Source of the DNA: Bacillus rhizoplanae
GTDB taxonomy: Bacteria; Bacillota; Bacilli; Bacillales; Bacillaceae_G
Direction: 5' to 3'
Length of the DNA: 64,000 bases
NCBI RefSeq assembly: GCF_917563915.1
Contig: NZ_CAKJTI010000003.1
Location: 1 to 64,000 of the forward strand
Of the stretch, positions 39,582 to 60,063 are shown in pieces (positions within the stretch are counted from its first letter, which is position 1; each line of letters begins with the position of its first letter). The translations under genes were made by a program, and so were the position numbers. Below the pieces are notes generated by a model that was not told the DNA's origin, ran no database searches, and saw only the letters and a program-made list of their open reading frames with translations.

Positions 39582-39893
39582 GACATTTTTATCGGAAAGA
39601 AGTAAAATTAATTTTCGTGTCTCGGTTACAGCTAGTATATATTGGTTATTCCTTACTTATACAAGTCACTAATTTGCTAAAGATCGGGCGATGATGCCAA
39701 CAACTTTAGTGATCGTGTATATGATGAATTGTATTTGTAAGCTGTACACACGTACTAGTGTATAAGGAGCGGTCGTTGGAACCGCAATGATGAAAGAGAG
39801 GCAGGGCTTTCATCCAGTATATGTTACTTTCCCGTTAGTTAAATATAAAAAAAGAAGGCGCCTTTTTGTGAAAGGTAGCCTTCTTTTTATTTT
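39582..39893 (+). other. Transcription unit without a convincing gene
   Basis: A near-consensus promoter (TTGACA, 17-bp spacer, TAAAAT, about 39580-39608) leads into about 250 nt with hairpins and a final terminator (GAAGGCGCC... with ...GGTAGCCTTC and a T-run, 39847-39893). Two readings are possible. One is a structured RNA. The other is a decayed gene, since one frame reads as membrane-like residues on both sides of a single TAA near 39670 and continues as MMPTTLVIVYMMNC to a stop. A GGAACCGC string near 39778 recalls a T-box, but it is the arm of a local GCGGT/ACCGC stem and no amino-acid gene follows. Confidence 0.4.
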
Positions 39894-43744: not shown

Positions 43745-43773
43745 AGTAAAACTTCCGTTCGCGGGAGGATAAA
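43741..43773 (+). repeat. Possible bcr1 head relic at the ilvD stop
   Basis: ATAAAGTAAAACTTCC and a small GCGGGAGGATAAAG recall the bcr1 termini with nearly all of the interior lost. Short similarity, so tentative. Confidence 0.35.
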
Positions 43774-43774
43774 G

Positions 43775-44032
43775 CGTTGATAGGGAGGAGTAGTTGATTG
43801 TGAAGCCTCACAGAGAGTCGGTGGTTGGTGGAAACCGATGGTTCACGTTGACGAACATCGCCCTTGAGTGCCAAGCTGAAGCACTTGCTTAGGTTTGGAC
43901 GGTAGCTCCGTTATTAGCTTGACTCTATTAGAGTCACTGAGGCAAGGATATTTCTTGCAAAGAAGGGTGGTACCACGAAGTCTTTCGTCCCTTCAGCACA
44001 TAGCTGGAGTGTGGGCGAAAGACTTTTTTTAT
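43775..44032 (+). promoter_or_regulatory. T-box riboswitch upstream of ilvB, probably Ile-specific
   Basis: A classic T-box leader: a long Stem I region, the tRNA-acceptor-binding sequence GGGTGGTACCACG (43965-43977), the antiterminator partner CGTCCCTT and a terminator (AGTCTTTCG/CGAAAGACT with T-run, to 44030). The variable base U fits a tRNA with discriminator A. The best specifier candidate is ATC at 43857-43859 (in GAACATCG), an Ile codon. Uncharged tRNA would allow read-through into ilvB-leuD. Confidence 0.9.
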
Positions 44033-52109: not shown

Positions 52110-52138
52110 TTTACTTTCGATTTAATTGGTAGTATACT
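52110..52138 (+). promoter_or_regulatory. Promoter of the his operon
   Basis: TTTACT (52110-52115) and TATACT (52133-52138) are spaced by 17 bp, a good sigma-A promoter. Transcription would start near 52145, ahead of the leader peptide. Confidence 0.8.
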
Positions 52139-52167
52139 AACTTCAAACAAAGAGGAGAAAGGGAGTA

Positions 52168-52224
52168 ATGACAATGTTAACTTTACAATCAGTCATTTTA
52201 TTTACACAACATCATCATACATAA
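52168..52224 (+). CDS. His operon leader peptide with three consecutive His codons
   Basis: An 18-residue peptide (MTMLTLQSVILFTQHHHT) starts two bases after an AGGAGAAAGGGAG ribosome site. His codons 15-17 (52210-52218) are CAT CAT CAT, just before the stop and the first hairpin. Ribosome stalling here when charged tRNA-His is scarce would alter folding of the downstream RNA. This is the arrangement of classical amino-acid attenuators of enteric bacteria. Confidence 0.88.
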   Translation: MTMLTLQSVILFTQHHHT

Positions 52225-52333
52225 ACCCTTGAACCTAGCGTGAAAAAACGTGTAGGTACAAGGGTTATTTCCATTGTACCTACATTCTCCAAAGAGCTAT
52301 GTAGGTATTTTTATCTACATAGCTCTTTTTTTC
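52224..52333 (+). promoter_or_regulatory. His attenuator: alternative hairpins and terminator
   Basis: Overlapping arms are AACCCTTG (52224) with CAAGGGTT (52259), TGTAGGTACAA (52251) with TTGTACCTACA (52274), TACCTACAT (52277) with ATGTAGGTA (52299), and the terminator AGAGCTATGTAG (52293) with CTACATAGCTCT (52315) plus seven T. The third pairing and the terminator share 52299-52304 and exclude each other. A ribosome stalled on the His codons would mask the first arm and so favour one state. The direction of the effect is modelled, not measured. Confidence 0.85.
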
Positions 52334-52556
52334 GTTTTCTAAGCGCTATGTTATGAATGTATGAGTACTGGAGAAGATGAACTCGTAACAAATAATGTAT
52401 CTAAATTTTCCCGCTTCAAATGTGTTTTGGACGCTAGCTGACTTGTAAATGAGAGTAGTTAAAGAAATTCATAATGGACATATAAGAGAAGCATATTAAA
52501 TATGTTATCTTTGTAGATTTTTTGTATATATGTGCCAAGAAAGTAGAGGTGTAACG

Positions 52557-53819
52557 ATGAAAAAATGGAAAAGAGCCAATCCAAATGGAACAAAAGATTT
52601 TTTGTTTCAAGAATGTACATTAATGGAAGAGATTGAACAAAGATTAAGACGTACATTTATCGAGAGAGGATACGAAGAAATCCGGACACCTATGATTGAA
52701 TTTTATGATGTGTTTGCATTTCAAAACCGTCCTATTGATGAGGAGAAAATGTATAAGTTTTTTGATTCTGAGGGACGCATCCTTGTTCTTAGACCGGATA
52801 TGACAATTCCGCTAGCACGTGTAATTGGAACGAAAAGAATGGAAACGCCTTTGAAGTTAACATATAGTGGGAATGTTTTTAGGGCAAATGAATCTTTAAC
52901 AGGGAAATATAATGAAATTACACAAACTGGAATTGAAATTATTGGTATTGATAATATACGTGCTGAAATTGAGTGTATTGTAAGTGCGATTGCAGCCTTG
53001 CAATCAGCTGGCATTCAATCATTTAAAATTGAAATTGGCCAAGTGGAACTTTATAAATCCATTGTGAAAAAGTTGTCTTTGCGAGAAGAAGATGAATATG
53101 CATTGCGAGAATATATTGAGAGTAAAAATTTTGCTGCTTTGTCCCGTTTTCTACAAGAAAAGCAGTTAGATATGCAAGATGAAACGGTGCAATTATTACA
53201 AAAGTTACCTCGTTTATTTGGCGGATTAGAGGTGATTGAAGAAGCTGAAAAGCTTGCTGTGAGTAAAGAAATGAAGAGAGCAATTACGAGGTTAAAAAAT
53301 ATATATGAAAACATTGATCGCCTTGGTTATGGTCAATATATATCTATTGATTTAGGGATGATTCAACATCTTCATTATTATACCGGTGTAATCTTTCGCG
53401 GATATATATGTAATGTTGGAGAAGAGATTGTCAGCGGTGGAAGATATGATGAACTTATTGGGAATTTTGGTGAGTCTCTACCTGCAGTAGGCTTAGCGAT
53501 ACAAGTAAATCAAATTGTACGTACGTTACAAGAACATAAAGAAAATTCAACCCAAAAACAAATAGATGCCCTCATATATTATTCGTTAGATATGATTTCG
53601 GAAGCAGAAAAATTGTGTATTTTATTGGGAAAAGATGGTGTAAAAGTAGAACTGTCAATGCTAGAAAATTTACAAGGTACATTTCAATTTGCAAGAGCGC
53701 GCGATGTGAAAACTGTGATTGATGTATCGGGAGATGCTTTAGTCGAATATGTTTGGAAAGGGAAATGGATCATGCAGAAAAAAGGAGAATCCTCATGCGT
53801 AACATTCAAATTGCGTTAA
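52557..53819 (+). CDS. hisZ: ATP phosphoribosyltransferase regulatory subunit HisZ
   Basis: A 420-residue histidyl-tRNA-synthetase-like protein without tRNA-charging function; it pairs with short-form His[28 protein letters not shown] and [12 protein letters not shown] are class II synthetase-type motifs. ATG at 52557 after AGAGGTG is preferred to an upstream TTG/ATG frame. It is the first structural gene after the attenuator and overlaps hisG by 25 bases. Confidence 0.95.
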
Positions 53820-54439
53820 CGAAAGGAAGATTGGAAAAACATGTAATTCCGTTATTTGAACGAATCGGTATTGATTGTTCAGAACTAAAAGATAAAGGAA
53901 GGAAGCTTGTATTCCAAAGTAATAATTCCAAAATTTCATTCATTCTTGTAAAAGCAGTTGATGTCGTAACATATGTAGAACATGGTATAGCTGATATTGG
54001 TGTTGTCGGCAAAGATATTTTGCTTGAATATGAAAACGATGTATATGAAATGATTGATTTAGGGGTAGGGCGTTGTAAATTTTGCGTTGCTTCCGTTTCG
54101 TCGTATAGTCCAAACGGTTATAACAAAAAGAGGATTGCAACAAAGTATCCGAATATTACTTCTGCATATTTCCGTAAGAAGGGAGAAGATGTAGAGATTA
54201 TTAAAATAGAAGGTTCTGTAGAGATTGCCCCTTTATTAGGACTAACAGATGCAATCGTTGATATTGTAGAAACAGGACAAACATTAAAAGAAAATGGATT
54301 AGTAGTATTTGAAGAAATTTGCGACATTTCAGCACGATTAATTGTAAACAAAGCATCTTTAAAAATGAAAAAAGACGAAATATTCAATGTTATAAATAAA
54401 ATGGAAAGTGTCTTAATAGAAAAAAATAAAGGAGGGTAA
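53795..54439 (+). CDS. hisG: ATP phosphoribosyltransferase catalytic subunit (short form)
   Basis: A 214-residue short-form HisG, the first committed enzyme of histidine synthesis. [16 protein letters not shown] at the start and [16 protein letters not shown] (PRPP loop) near the end are typical. It lacks the C-terminal His-binding domain of long HisG, so feedback control needs HisZ. ATG at 53795 follows AAAGGAG inside the end of hisZ. Confidence 0.96.
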
Positions 54440-54441
54440 AT

Positions 54442-55734
54442 ATGGAAATTGTATATGAGGATTATTCTAATATTTTATGGAAGGTAAAACAGCTAAGAGA
54501 ACAGGCAAACACAATAGAAGAAACGATTCAACAAGATGTGAGGAAAATTGTTGTAAGTGTAAAAGAAAAGAAAGATGAAGCGCTTTTTTCATATACGAAG
54601 GCTTTTGACAAAGTAGAATTGACTCAATTTCAAGTTTCAAAAGAAGAACTGGAATCAGCATATAAATGTGTCGAACCAGCATTTTTGGCAGCATTGGAAG
54701 AAGCAAAGAAGAATATCATCTCATACCACGAAAAGCAAAAAAGACAAGCTTTTATTGATACAGAAAATGAGGGAATTATTCGCGGGCAGCTTGTTCGGCC
54801 ATTACAAACTGTTGGTGTATATGTACCCGGAGGAACGGCAGCGTATCCATCATCAGTTCTCATGAATGTCTTACCAGCAAAAATTGCGGGCGTCAATAAA
54901 ATTGTCATGGTAACACCCCCAAATTGTGAAGGGGTAGATCCGCATATTTTAGCAGCGGCAAAAGTTGCTGGAGTTGATGAAGTATATACAGTAGGGGGAG
55001 CACAAGCAATTGCTGCGCTAGCATACGGAACAGAATCGATTCCGCGTGTTGATAAGATTGTAGGACCAGGAAATATTTATGTTGCATTAGCAAAGCGAGA
55101 AGTATTCGGTTCAGTTCATATCGATATGATTGCTGGCCCGTCCGAAATTGTTGTTATTTCTGATGAAACAGGAAATGCAGCGTATATTGCTGCTGATTTA
55201 TTATCACAAGCAGAGCACGATATACGGGCAACTGCCATTTATATCACCACTTGTTTAGAATTAGCGCAGGAAGTGAATAGAGAAATAGAAAAACAATTGA
55301 TGAATCTCCCGAGAAGTGAAATAGCTCGTGAATCCATTAACAGAAACGGAGCGATTCTTGTTGTAGAGTCGTTGGACCAAGCGTTTGAGCTCTCAAATGA
55401 AATTGCGCCGGAACACTTAGAGTTACACATAAAAGAACCGATGACAGCTCTTCCGTATATTCAACATGCAGGTTCTATCTTTCTAGGTCCGTATGCGCCG
55501 GAACCGTTAGGTGATTATATGGCAGGTCCAAATCACGTGTTACCAACGAGTGGAACAGCAAGGTTTTTTTCACCATTATCTGTAGATGATTTTATGAAAA
55601 AATCGAGCTTTTTATTTTATACAAAAGAAGCTCTTGGACAAGTGCAACAGCATATTGTCAATCTAGCAGAAAAAGAAGGATTACAAGCTCATGCGAGAGC
55701 AATTGAGATTCGTTTTAGAGGAGGGGAAAAGTGA
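54442..55734 (+). CDS. hisD: Histidinol dehydrogenase
   Basis: A 430-residue Zn/NAD enzyme for the last two oxidations to histidine. [34 protein letters not shown] and EIAPEHLEL (metal and catalytic residues) are all present. It starts two bases after hisG and overlaps hisB. Confidence 0.97.
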
Positions 55735-56318
55735 TGCGCACTGCAAAACAAACGAGAATCACAACTGAAACAAAGATTTCCGTAGCACTGGAACTAGATG
55801 GCAATCAAGAAGTTTCAATTCAAACAGGAGTAGGTTTTTTTGATCATATGTTGACATTATTCGCAAAGCACGGTCGCTTCGGGTTGCAAATTGAAGCTGA
55901 TGGCGATGTGCATATTGATGCTCATCATACGGTAGAAGATGTTGGAATTGTTCTTGGGAATTGTTTGAAAGAAGCCCTTGGTGATAAAGCAGGAATTAAT
56001 CGTTACGGTACAGCTTATGTACCGATGGATGAAGCATTAGGGTTTGTTACTGTTGATATAAGCGGAAGGTCCTATCTCGTATTTGATGGTGAATTTATGA
56101 ATCCAAAACTTGGTGACTTTGACACAGAGCTAGCAGAAGAATTCTTTCGTGCAGTAGCTCACGCAGCAAATATAACACTACACGTACGCGTTTTATATGG
56201 AAGCAACACACATCACAAAATTGAAGCACTTTTTAAAGCATTTGGACGTGCACTGCGTGATGCCGCCGAGAAAAATGAAAAGATTATAGGAGTAAATTCC
56301 ACGAAAGGACTGTTGTAA
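55734..56318 (+). CDS. hisB: Imidazoleglycerol-phosphate dehydratase
   Basis: A 194-residue monofunctional dehydratase. [14 protein letters not shown] and [11 protein letters not shown] carry the manganese-binding His residues, and a second set is in FRAVAHAA and [16 protein letters not shown] at 55734 has AGGAGGGG upstream; it shares a base with the hisD stop (TGATG). Confidence 0.96.
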
Positions 56319-56319
56319 T

Positions 56320-56949
56320 ATGATTGCGATTGTAGATTATGGAATGGGCAACATTCGAAGTGTAGAGCAAGCGTTAAGGCATATTGGAGCAGCGTATATT
56401 GTAACAGATGAAGCAGAAGCACTTGTAAATAGCGACGGTGTTATTTTGCCAGGAGTTGGTGCATTTCCAAGCGCGATGCGTTGTTTAGAGGAAAAAGGAC
56501 TTATTTCTGTTTTGAAGCAAGTTGCTATTGCAGGAAAACCATTGTTTGGAATTTGTTTGGGGATGCAGCTTTTATTTGAAGAAAGTGAAGAGATTGAAAG
56601 AACGAAAGGGTTAGGGTTGCTTCCAGGAACGGTAAGAAAATTAGACGTACCATATAAAATTCCTCATATGGGATGGAATAAGTTACAAAAGAAAAAGGAG
56701 CATCCTTTATGGGATGAAATAGAGGATGGTGCTTTCGTCTATTATGTTCATTCTTATTATGCGCAATGTCCAAATGATGTTGTAGTAGGCGCTAGTGAGT
56801 ATGGTGTTTTCGTACCAGGAATTGTTTCAAGAGGAAATGTATTTGGGGCTCAGTTCCATCCTGAAAAAAGTGGTGAAATAGGAATTCAAATATTACGAAA
56901 TTTTAAGGAGGTTATAGAAACATGGAAATCTTCCCAGCTATCGATTTAA
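56320..56949 (+). CDS. hisH: Imidazole glycerol phosphate synthase glutaminase subunit
   Basis: A 209-residue class I glutamine amidotransferase. The nucleophile Cys is in [11 protein letters not shown] (about 78), and His/Glu in AQFHPEKSG near the end. It feeds ammonia to HisF. It starts one base after hisB and overlaps hisA by 28 bases. Confidence 0.96.
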
Positions 56950-57641
56950 AGAATGGTCGTTGCGTTCGTTTGTATCAAGGGCAATTTCAACAAGAAACAG
57001 TAATGAATGAAAACCCAGTTGCCCAGGCATTACTATTTGAACAACTTGGTGCACGCGTACTGCACATTGTTGATTTGGACGGAGCAGTTGCTGGTCGTTC
57101 AGAGAATCTTTCTGTCATTGAAGATATTTGCAAGGCAGTGCGAATTCCAGTGCAAGTGGGGGGCGGGATTCGCTCAGTTGCTGCAATTGAAACACTTTTA
57201 TCAGCTGGAGTAATGAAAGTAATTCTTGGAACAGCAGCATTATATGATCGTTCATTTGTAGAAGAGGCAGTTCGTTTATATGGAGATAAAATTATTGTTG
57301 GAATCGATGCTAAAAATGGTTATGTAGCCACGCGAGGATGGCTAGATGTGTCTGAAACGTCTTATGTACAACTGGCAAAGGAAATGGAGAAAGTGGGTGT
57401 GCAGACGCTTATTTTTACTGACATTTCTAGAGATGGAACGCTTGCAGGTCCAAATTTTGAACAATTACAAAAATTACAAGATGAGGTTTCGCTTCAAATT
57501 GTTGCTTCCGGGGGTGTGAGCTCGCTTGCTGATGTTGAGAAATTACAGGATATGAACTTATATGGCGTTATTATTGGGAAAGCATTATATGATAAAAAAG
57601 TTATTTTAGAAGAAGCATTGCAGGTGACAGGCATATGTTAA
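56922..57641 (+). CDS. hisA: ProFAR isomerase
   Basis: A 239-residue beta/alpha barrel isomerase. [17 protein letters not shown] holds the first catalytic Asp, VQVGGGIRS and [12 protein letters not shown] the phosphate sites and second Asp. AAGGAGG ribosome site inside hisH. Overlaps hisF by 7 bases. Confidence 0.96.
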
Positions 57642-58393
57642 CAAAGCGAATTATTCCATGTTTAGATGTGAAAAATGGTCGTGTTGTAAAAGGAGTAAAT
57701 TTTATTGGATTACAAGATGTGGGTGATCCTGTTGCAATTGCGGCTGCATACAATGAGGCGGGTGCGGATGAACTTGTGTTTTTAGATATCACCGCAACGT
57801 ATGAAGAACGAAAAACAATGATTGATGTCGTAGAGCGTACAGCATCTCAGGTATTTATTCCACTAACAGTTGGAGGTGGAATCTCATCTGTCCAAGATAT
57901 GTATGCATTACTTCGAGCTGGTGCAGATAAAGTCTCATTAAATTCAGCTGCAGTGCAAAGACCGGAGTTAATACAAGAAGGAGCGGAGCAATTTGGTTCT
58001 CAATGTATAGTCGTTGCGATCGATGCAAGAAAGGTCGGAGAAAACAAATGGAATGTATATGTAAGTGGAGGTCGTATTGATACAGGAATAGATGTAATCG
58101 AATGGGCAAAACGTGTGGAAAGTTTAGGCGCTGGGGAATTACTTTTAACGAGCATGGATGCAGATGGGACAAAAAATGGCTATGATTTACTTTTGACAGA
58201 AACAGTTTCAAAAGCAGTTGGTATTCCGGTAATTGCTTCGGGTGGATGTGGGTCAATTAAACATATTGCAGAAGTTTTTCAGCGAACATCAGCAAATGCA
58301 GCGTTAGCGGCTTCTATTTTTCATTACGGCACGGCAACCATTCAAGAAACGAAACAAAAGTTACAAGAAGCGCAAATTGAGGTGAGATTGTGA
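57635..58393 (+). CDS. hisF: Imidazole glycerol phosphate synthase cyclase subunit
   Basis: A 252-residue barrel partner of His[18 protein letters not shown] with the catalytic Asp, LTVGGGISS, and [15 protein letters not shown] with the second Asp are present. It overlaps hisI by four bases. Confidence 0.97.
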
Positions 58394-58695
58394 AACCGGA
58401 TTTTTCAAAAGGATTATTGCCAGCTGTTGTGATAGAAGAGGGTACAAAAGATGTTTTGATGCTAGCTTATATGAATGAAGAAGCATATGAAAAAACATTA
58501 GACACAAAAACGACCTGGTTTTATTCTCGTTCACGACGAGGTTTGTGGAATAAGGGAGAAACATCAGGACATGTCCAACATGTGAAATCATTATATTTAG
58601 ATTGCGATCAAGATTCTATTATGGTAGTTGTCCAGCAAGTAGGTGTAGCTTGCCATACCGGAGAAAAGTCATGTTTTCATAATAAGGTGTTATAG
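58390..58695 (+). CDS. hisI: Phosphoribosyl-AMP cyclohydrolase
   Basis: A 101-residue PRA-CH enzyme. [28 protein letters not shown] and CHTGEKSCF carry the zinc and magnesium ligands. GTG start in a GTGA overlap with hisF. It is separate from hisE here, whereas the two are fused in B. subtilis. Confidence 0.95.
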
Positions 58696-58707
58696 GGGGA
58701 TAAGGAA

Positions 58708-59031
58708 ATGAGCGATGTGTTGCAACAGTTATATGAAACAATTCAACAGCGAAAAGAGAATCCTATCTCTGAGTCGTATACGAATTACTTATTTACAAAA
58801 GGGGAAGACAAAATATTAAAGAAATTAGGAGAAGAATGTACTGAAGTTGTGATTGCGGCGAAAAATAATGACAAAGACGAGCTTATAAAAGAAGTTGTTG
58901 ATTTTACGTATCATTGCTTAGTGTTACTAGTAGAAAAAAATGTATCATTACAAGAGATAATAGAAGAATTAAATAAACGTCAAGGTCAATTATCCAGAGT
59001 CGGCGAACGAAAAGAAATTGATACATTATAG
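58708..59031 (+). CDS. hisE: Phosphoribosyl-ATP pyrophosphatase
   Basis: A 107-residue all-alpha MazG-like enzyme. [16 protein letters not shown] and [14 protein letters not shown] carry the metal-binding Glu/Asp. It follows hisI after 12 bp with its own AGGGGGATAAGGA site. With hisI it supplies steps two and three of the pathway. Confidence 0.95.
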
Positions 59032-59043
59032 GAGGGGAGAAAG

Positions 59044-60063
59044 ATGAGAGTAGATTATCACCTTCACTTAGAAGAAGGGCCGTATTCAATGCGGTGGTTA
59101 TCTCGCACAAATGAAGCGCTCGAGTATTTTGCACCGATTGAGGAAGAGAAACATTCAATGGGATGGATCTTAAAAGCTGGGGAACGTTTGCAAAAGCGTG
59201 TAAAGGAAGGCGCATTTTCACCGGATTGGATTGATTTATATTTAGAGGAAGCAGTGCGTAAAGGAATACGGGAAGTTGGAATCGTTGACCACTTATATCG
59301 TTTTTACGAAGCAAAGGAATACTATGAGCGCTATGTCGATATTAGTGATACAGAACTTGGACATCTGCAAAAAGAATGGCTGGATCAGGTGAGGGTAGAA
59401 TCGATTACAAATTTTACAAGAGCGATTGAAGATGCGAAAGAAAGATGGAGAAAACGAGGCGTGATATTACGGCTTGGAATAGAAGCCGATTATTTTATTG
59501 GTGGGGAAGAGGAACTAGCGAAGTTATTAACGTTAGGAAATTGGGATTATGTCATTGGTTCTGTTCATTTTATTAATGGATGGGGATTTGATAATCCAGA
59601 TACAGACGCTTATTTTAGACAGCATGATTTACATGTGTTATATCCTGAATTTTTCCGTACTTTAGAAAAATCGATACGTTCTGGCCTATTTGATATTGTT
59701 GCACATTTAGATAATATTAAAGTGTTTAACTATCGCATAGATGAAAATCAGCAATTACCATATTATGAGAAAATCGCTAAGGCTTTAATTGAAACAAATA
59801 CAGCTACGGAAGTGAATGCTGGCTTGTATTATCGATATCCTGTAAGAGAAATGTGTCCGAGCCCTTTGTTTTTACAACGCTTAGTGCATTATGGTGTTCC
59901 AATTACAATTTCTTCAGATGCGCATTTCCCGAATGATTTAGGTAGCTACGTAAAAGAAAATATAGAGACACTTCGTAATCATGGTGTGACGCACATTGCA
60001 ACATTTGAAAAACGAATCCGGAACATGAAGCCGATTGAATATGTAGAAGAAAATGTTTTGTGA
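59044..60063 (+). CDS. hisJ: Histidinol-phosphatase, PHP family
   Basis: A 339-residue PHP-domain phosphatase. DYHLHLEEGP at the start, IVDHLYRF, GIEADYF, HFINGW and SSDAHFPNDLG hold the metal ligands. It is longer than B. subtilis HisJ, with an insertion around residues 15-60. It follows hisE after 12 bp with AGGAGGGGAG. Its TGA stop lies within the ATAAAG head of a bcr1 copy. hisC is not in this window. Confidence 0.92.
   Translation: MRVDYHLHLEEGPYSMRWLSRTNEALEYFAPIEEEKHSMGWILKAGERLQKRVKEGAFSPDWIDLYLEEAVRKGIREVGIVDHLYRFYEAKEYYERYVDISDTELGHLQKEWLDQVRVESITNFTRAIEDAKERWRKRGVILRLGIEADYFIGGEEELAKLLTLGNWDYVIGSVHFINGWGFDNPDTDAYFRQHDLHVLYPEFFRTLEKSIRSGLFDIVAHLDNIKVFNYRIDENQQLPYYEKIAKALIETNTATEVNAGLYYRYPVREMCPSPLFLQRLVHYGVPITISSDAHFPNDLGSYVKENIETLRNHGVTHIATFEKRIRNMKPIEYVEENVL

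Follow-up and report, generated by a model that had tools for sequence, protein, structure and literature searches.

The histidine operon of Bacillus rhizoplanae is preceded by a leader region which conservation, covarying stems and a scan of predicted folds support as a His-codon leader-peptide attenuator. The region lies within a stretch of 64,000 nucleotides (contig NZ_CAKJTI010000003.1, positions 1 to 64,000; hereafter the window, meaning the whole stretch of DNA that was analysed), in which positions 52110-52332 hold a promoter-like site, a leader ORF, overlapping stems and a terminator, bearing out what had been observed from the letters alone. We consider it probable that transcription attenuation by this leader depends on a translating ribosome and responds to charged tRNA-His through a chain of five RNA arms, here named A, B, C, E and F, in which a stalled ribosome would expose arm A and the default state would be ON. 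The window element is already a published prediction; its wiring and its homology across a wider family are the parts worth testing.

Parts of the leader and their alternative pairings

The features of the region are collected in Table 1.

Table 1. Features of the his leader region and the operon behind it, in window coordinates.
Feature	Coordinates	Strand	Basis or remark
Promoter-like site TTTACT-17-TATACT	52110..52138	+	Sequence; count not above chance
Ribosome-binding site AAGGGAG	52159..52165	+	Read from sequence; 8 nt before ATG 52174
Leader ORF, 16 codons MLTLQSVILFTQHHHT + TAA	52174..52224	+	Alternative start 52168, 18 codons
Three His regulatory codons CAT CAT CAT	52210..52218	+	Sequence, alignment; one Thr codon before stop
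Arm A	52224..52241	+	Starts on the final base of the TAA stop; partner B in read-through state
Arm B	52248..52266	+	Partner A or C
Arm C	52270..52289	+	Partner B (termination state) or E (antiterminator)
Arm E	52291..52307	+	Terminator 5' half; held by C in read-through state
Arm F (to 52328) + U tract	52312..52332	+	Intrinsic terminator 3' half
hisZ, first gene of the controlled operon	52557..53819	+	TIGR00443
Remaining his operon	53820..60063	+	Read from translations

The sequence-only reading had described a promoter, an 18-codon leader with a strong ribosome site, three CAT codons next to the stop, and overlapping hairpins ending in a terminator before hisZ. The ribosome site, the CAT codons and the hairpins stood, the alternative folds covarying in 10 relatives. 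The promoter claim held to the extent that a matching site is present, but the number of such sites does not exceed that in shuffled sequence (two in the window against a shuffle mean of 3.8). The leader frame contains two in-frame ATGs (52168 and 52174) and is closed by TAA at 52222-52224; it is thus open over 18 codons, but the 16-codon version is more likely, since ATG 52174 follows AAGGGAG by 8 nt and is aligned with the start in relatives, in which similar purine runs are also present. The peptide ends in His-His-His-Thr-stop. These parts are the ones that mark an attenuator, namely a short ORF with a ribosome site and regulatory codons and, ahead of the operon, an intrinsic terminator. 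This terminator (52291-52328) is built of 17 base pairs followed by a T tract, and the window holds one such structure against 0.3 expected from shuffles; it ends approximately 225 nt before the hisZ start, which lies approximately 330 nt past the leader stop. With up to three mismatches allowed, the sequence CATCATCATNNNTAAACCCTTGAACC has a single occurrence in the window and none in 100 shuffles. The hisZ product scored 352 bits against TIGR00443 (cut-off 271.65), and the genes that follow are, from their translations, presumably hisG-D-B-H-A-F-I-E and a PHP-type phosphatase.

The RNA from 52145 to 52340 has a folding energy of -60.2 kcal/mol compared with -31.2 for shuffles (z -7.2), and the individual hairpins were calculated at -22.0 (A:B), -19.6 (B:C), -14.4 (C:E) and -23.3 (E:F) kcal/mol. 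Two folds are mutually exclusive: A:B with C:E, which would allow read-through (ON), and B:C with E:F, which contains the terminator (OFF). Since the minimum-energy fold of the full-length RNA includes the terminator, C:E would have to win by kinetics.

Both folds were examined in an alignment of 10 elements, in which the G055 row lacks the first His codons and arm B of G019 is two positions out of register (G and L numbers denote genomes and loci). In the ON fold 80.3% of cells were paired and 12 pairs were changed on both sides, compared with 34.5-50.0% and 4-9 pairs when the fold was slid along the alignment as a control; the OFF fold gave 88.7% and 9 double-change pairs, with slid controls at 35.5-47.6% and 2-6. 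Tested against shuffles, the ON fold was unremarkable in two of five measures (double-change pairs equalled in 62 of 500, pair types in 357 of 500), and the corresponding counts for the OFF fold were 0 and 384 of 500. Of the pairs changed on both sides in the ON fold, 10 belong to A:B and two to C:E, and the three inner pairs of the C:E stem of the window are mostly broken in relatives. Within 7-base cores whose registers were picked by hand, C:E had 64 Watson-Crick and 2 GU pairs among 70 cells, B:C kept 68 of 70, and E:F had 55 and a further 7 GU among 70. Read by hand in register, arms B, C and E covary in all 10 elements: GTA, GCA or GTG in B is matched by its complement in C and recurs in E, with arm F tracking these core changes less well. 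We take this pattern as support for selection acting on C:E itself, over its being a side effect of the terminator stem. The mutual exclusion of terminator and antiterminator thus appears to be accompanied by covariation, as an attenuator should have it, the evidence for C:E consisting of two double-change pairs and the hand-read core. Many of the relatives are near-identical, so that counts of elements are not independent.

Relatives of the leader and the genes behind them

Relatives were sought in a neighbouring family of 19 genomes, reached through Ectobacillus loci, and then by covariance models in wider samples. Leader DNA matched in four of the 19 genomes, in none of them before hisZ. 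In Ectobacillus panaciterrae (G002) and G018 the leader stands upstream of an amino-acid permease gene (PF13520), and in G003 and G004 upstream of a gene for a protein of approximately 150 residues, for which a family search returned no match. The latter two genomes carry a second copy upstream of a Na+/H+ antiporter-family gene (PF03553; the G004 copy was tested), which we take to be of the YuiF type. In these antiporter-gene leaders (L067 1000-1139 and L068 986-1125) arm A has a possible partner in the first codons, GACGCAG, and an OFF default without translation would result from this pairing. The element was absent from the hisZ of G001-G004 and G019, where L001 and L002 were read and a search of L001, L002, L011, L012 and L013 gave no match. 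In front of the Ectobacillus hisZ (L001, L002 2960-3000), which is without attenuator, the palindrome CTTTCGTTTCGAAAG follows a promoter-like site and precedes the start.

A covariance model built from five elements matched 30 of 397 genomes of the order, and the 30 loci listed from this search comprised, by reading, 17 His-rich leaders and 13 terminators only. A hisS paralogue lies directly downstream of the G019 leader and approximately 600 nt past the terminator of the G219 leader, and the G055 leader is upstream of a hisD-family gene (TIGR00069). In 13 genomes (G005-G017) the leader precedes a divergent hisZ, found by pattern at 13 of 14 loci and by the model at L015; the divergent hisZ of G016 matches PF13393, and the genes after it are presumably hisG and hisD, as named from their translations. 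In the families of G219 (15 genomes) and G055 (2 genomes) a search gave no copies beyond those already known, and neither the leader DNA against plasmids and phages nor the leader core pattern against viral contigs gave a match.

A model of 13 elements matched 23 of 398 genomes of the class, the weakest case noted being G539 (E 4e-4). The matches comprised 21 His leaders, one decayed leader (L095) and one non-leader (L098); with gene names assigned by reading translations, 19 leaders stand before hisS-like genes and two before hisZ-like genes, the latter in genomes of 2.2-2.6 Mb. The element is carried by a small share of the sampled Bacilli genomes.

For the alignment, 38 matches from 36 chosen sources were used, leaving out the near copies L083 and L085-L088 as well as L098; two rows were second matches on the opposite strand (L009 and L010) and were dropped, giving 36. 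Arms A and B share letters across the hisZ, hisS, hisD and permease leaders. Of the 36 rows, 35 have a run of two or more His codons, a count that holds partly by construction as the model contains those columns, and CAT and CAC interchange at the same positions in many hisS leaders. Loss of the His codons or of the competing pairings in relatives would have spoken against an attenuator; the codons are kept outside one exception, and both folds have covariation support in 10 relatives. The exception (L095 1450-1900, genome G644) has lost the leader ORF and arm A and kept B, C, E and F, before a broken-looking hisS, and leader and hisS seem to decay jointly. In L096 (G430) arm C is extended into a near-perfect complement of B, with a B:C stem far longer than in other relatives.

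A TrpR-family repressor (PF01371), the family called HisR in PMC9413887 by its accessible text, was found above cut-off in one of the 19 family genomes (G008) and in the B. subtilis control; five further genomes gave matches below cut-off over 39 of 88 positions in longer frames, and the search of G001 and G002 gave no match. This distribution fits the idea that attenuators replaced HisR where it was lost.

The ribosome and the proposed switch

The effect of a translating ribosome was modelled by equilibrium folding of transcripts ending at the terminator loop, with the RNA up to the ribosome edge removed and the footprint assumed to reach the A-site base + 12; the score is the fraction of arm E that is paired with RNA upstream of it. 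The folds of relatives without a ribosome begin at the leader ATG or 30 nt before the first His codon (His1), transcript starts being unmapped. An element was said to switch when it scored 0.4 or more at His1 and had dropped to half that value or less at the stop or 2 nt beyond.

The window element scored 0.70 without a ribosome, 0.70 at His1 and 0.65 at the third His codon, falling to 0.28 with the ribosome at the stop and to 0.18 and 0.10 when a further 2 and 5 nt were covered. When the stretch between the ribosome edge and E was shuffled (200 times per element), none of the 200 shuffles matched this change; nine other relatives reached the switch in 1 to 36 of 200, among them G055 (36), G019 (22), G219 (13) and G016 (12), while G266 went the opposite way and the E. 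coli hisL was unchanged (87/200). Counting the window, 29 of 48 elements switched and 19 failed; under a similar rule in an earlier version of the scan, counted by eye, 26 of 48 switched. The non-switching elements are 9 of 18 hisS leaders from the class-wide search, together with G055, G019, G008, one of two G013 copies, G408, G430 and G539, and three hisS-paralogue leaders (G146, G266 and G326) in which the score moves in the opposite direction and whose architecture seems to be different. In most switching elements C:E is lost at His1+24 to +28 (exceptions G219 at +19 and G668 at +17), at the same position with the stop 12 or 21 nt after His1; a drop fixed relative to His1 would be the outcome of a constraint on the spacing between the His codons and arm A.

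Attenuators of the E. coli type are OFF when untranslated, and a ribosome that stalls there masks arm 1. Most of the E. coli controls tended in this direction. Five of them scored 0.06 (trpL), 0.16 (pheL), 0.21 (leuL), 0.30 (thrL) and 0.51 (ilvL) without a ribosome; with the ribosome at the first control codon their values were 0.55-0.84, and with it at the stop 0.00-0.01. The sixth, hisL (0.33 without a ribosome, 0.60 at the first control codon and 0.60 at the stop), was the only control to fail, at the stop, and did so in three versions of the scan. The low score without ribosome that marks enteric wiring was not found in the window element (0.70 vs 0.06-0.51 in the six controls, all values being computational). 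With the window counted, 42 of 48 elements scored at least 0.4 without a ribosome; the six below include both antiporter-gene leaders (0.14 and 0.18), G326 (0.26), G430 (0.27) and G408 (0.00).

The four serial pairings A:B, B:C, C:E and E:F, combined with read-through on starvation, require arm A to be free at the stall, and from this we infer a logic that mirrors the enteric one, in which termination would need translation to the stop codon. With ample histidine the ribosome would reach the stop codon and cover A, so that B:C would form, E would remain free for E:F, and transcription would stop before hisZ. On histidine shortage the ribosome would stall on the CAT codons. Arm A starts 14 nt past the first base of the first CAT, so that with the ribosome at this codon A would be just beyond the assumed footprint, free to pair with B; once A:B has formed, C would be released to capture the emerging E and RNA polymerase would continue into hisZ. 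In an untranslated leader A would likewise be free, and the default should be ON.

Wiring as in E. coli, with a stalled ribosome masking the first arm in favour of the antiterminator and termination as the untranslated default, would use the same general parts; the accessible text of PMC9413887 outlines the general E. coli scheme, though without arm logic, and the six elements scoring below 0.4 without a ribosome would suit it. However, masking A in this leader would allow B:C, free E and close the terminator, the wrong direction for a starvation response, and both the position of A outside the assumed footprint at the first His codon and the high score without a ribosome compared with the six E. 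coli controls speak against such wiring, which we regard as unlikely.

That the hairpins are simply a constitutive terminator, or one controlled by a protein or ligand, with an incidental His-rich ORF, would agree with the terminator in the full-length fold, but the column-conserved His codons with their CAT/CAC changes (35 of 36 rows, partly by construction) and the hisZ, hisS and hisD genes downstream speak against it, even if the targets also include two transporter families, whose substrate is only putative, and one protein without a family match; we judge this reading to be rather improbable. An action on translation or mRNA stability, for instance through re-initiation, which PMC4833913 in its accessible part proposes where a leader gene adjoins the structural gene, is more improbable still, given the approximately 330 nt between leader stop and hisZ start and the retention of terminator hairpin and T tract in relatives. 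The five-arm attenuator with exposure of A at the stall remains our preferred reading.

Known attenuators and the place of the Bacilli family

The publications named here are cited from those portions of their text that were accessible. Naville and Gautheret (2010; PMC2965389) reported a histidine leader peptide in bacilli before hisZ and a hisS paralogue; their attenuators share with the window hisZ, a short ORF with a His run and a terminator, and the leader before the hisS paralogue (hisS*) is highly similar to that before hisZ. The accessible text neither sets out the logic of the individual arms nor names hisD or transporter genes as targets of the leader, and it does not mention Brevibacillus or yuiF. 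Ashniev et al. (2022; PMC9413887) listed candidate RNA attenuators before the his operon of six B. cereus-group species, as well as in Eubacteriales and Erysipelotrichales, and, in the portion seen, call the B. cereus-group element independently acquired. The window fits their description of three to five consecutive His codons upstream of alternative hairpins before the his operon, with operon, lineage and the attenuator, terminator and antiterminator hairpins in common. PMC4833913, citing earlier work, describes in its accessible part RNA triplexes before hisZ of B. cereus, B. thuringiensis and others, with a predicted histidyl-tRNA-dependent regulation. Neither a default-ON logic with five arms nor the additional target genes were found in the literature searched, supplements and most subscription papers lying outside that search.

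The his leader of E. coli and Salmonella (RF00514) likewise lets ribosome progress over His codons decide termination of the his operon, with a default state predicted to be the reverse of that in the window, a comparison qualified by the failure of hisL itself at the stop in the model. The window leader was not identified with RF00514, which gave no match at the gathering score nor at E up to 5, nor with the T-box (RF00230), whose only match in the window is at 43768-43995 (139.8 bits), approximately 5 kb upstream of a gene reading as leuB, and represents a different type of RNA attenuator in the same neighbourhood. Other Rfam matches in the window were two group I introns (RF00028; 1115-1421 at 66.6 bits and 1897-2233 at 78.5 bits), which presumably separate three open stretches of one ribonucleotide reductase gene, nrdE, and a BsrC small RNA (RF01410) on the minus strand at 39739-39821 (39.9 bits, gathering score 38).

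Two other leader-peptide attenuators were set aside as relatives and are taken as precedents only. In the ilv-leu leader of Staphylococcus aureus, another Firmicute, a Leu-to-stop suppressor was selected and predicted to relieve repression (PMC5794164, accessible text), an effect that fits the default-ON direction; the system, likened here by description, differs in responding to leucine and in a proposed antiterminator that pairs with the poly-U tail. The ilvBNC attenuator of Corynebacterium glutamicum, also governed by a leader peptide, has three kinds of hairpin (terminator, antiterminator and anti-antiterminator), but replacing its start codon lowered expression by 80%, as cited in the accessible text of PMC11857589, which is the classical direction and opposite to the prediction for the window.

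The sequence-only reading had called the leader a classical attenuator and an independent occurrence of the mechanism. Its his-attenuator part is supported by conservation, covarying stems and the fold scan; the word classical is probably wrong, since the layout of the arms and their spacing imply exposure of the first arm by a stalled ribosome and an ON state of the untranslated leader. With no RF00514 match, the Bacilli element may be independent of that of Proteobacteria, a thought already put forward in the accessible parts of PMC2965389 and PMC9413887, but the elements of Bacilli among themselves have the look of a single homologous family. Related leaders before hisS, his operons, hisD and transporter genes speak for one family and against the separate origin in the B. 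cereus group proposed in PMC9413887.

If the wiring is as proposed, a default-ON five-arm attenuator predicts constitutive expression on loss of the leader start codon, opposite to the textbook case of trp and his (background in PMC1183508). We lean, by a narrow preference, to the view that there is one mobile His-attenuator family in Bacilli, absent from Rfam and mirroring the enteric logic, which was inherited or spread over histidyl-tRNA synthetase, his and transporter genes as a small His regulon. If there is indeed one family across Bacilli, several supposed independent inventions would become a single element moving between genes.
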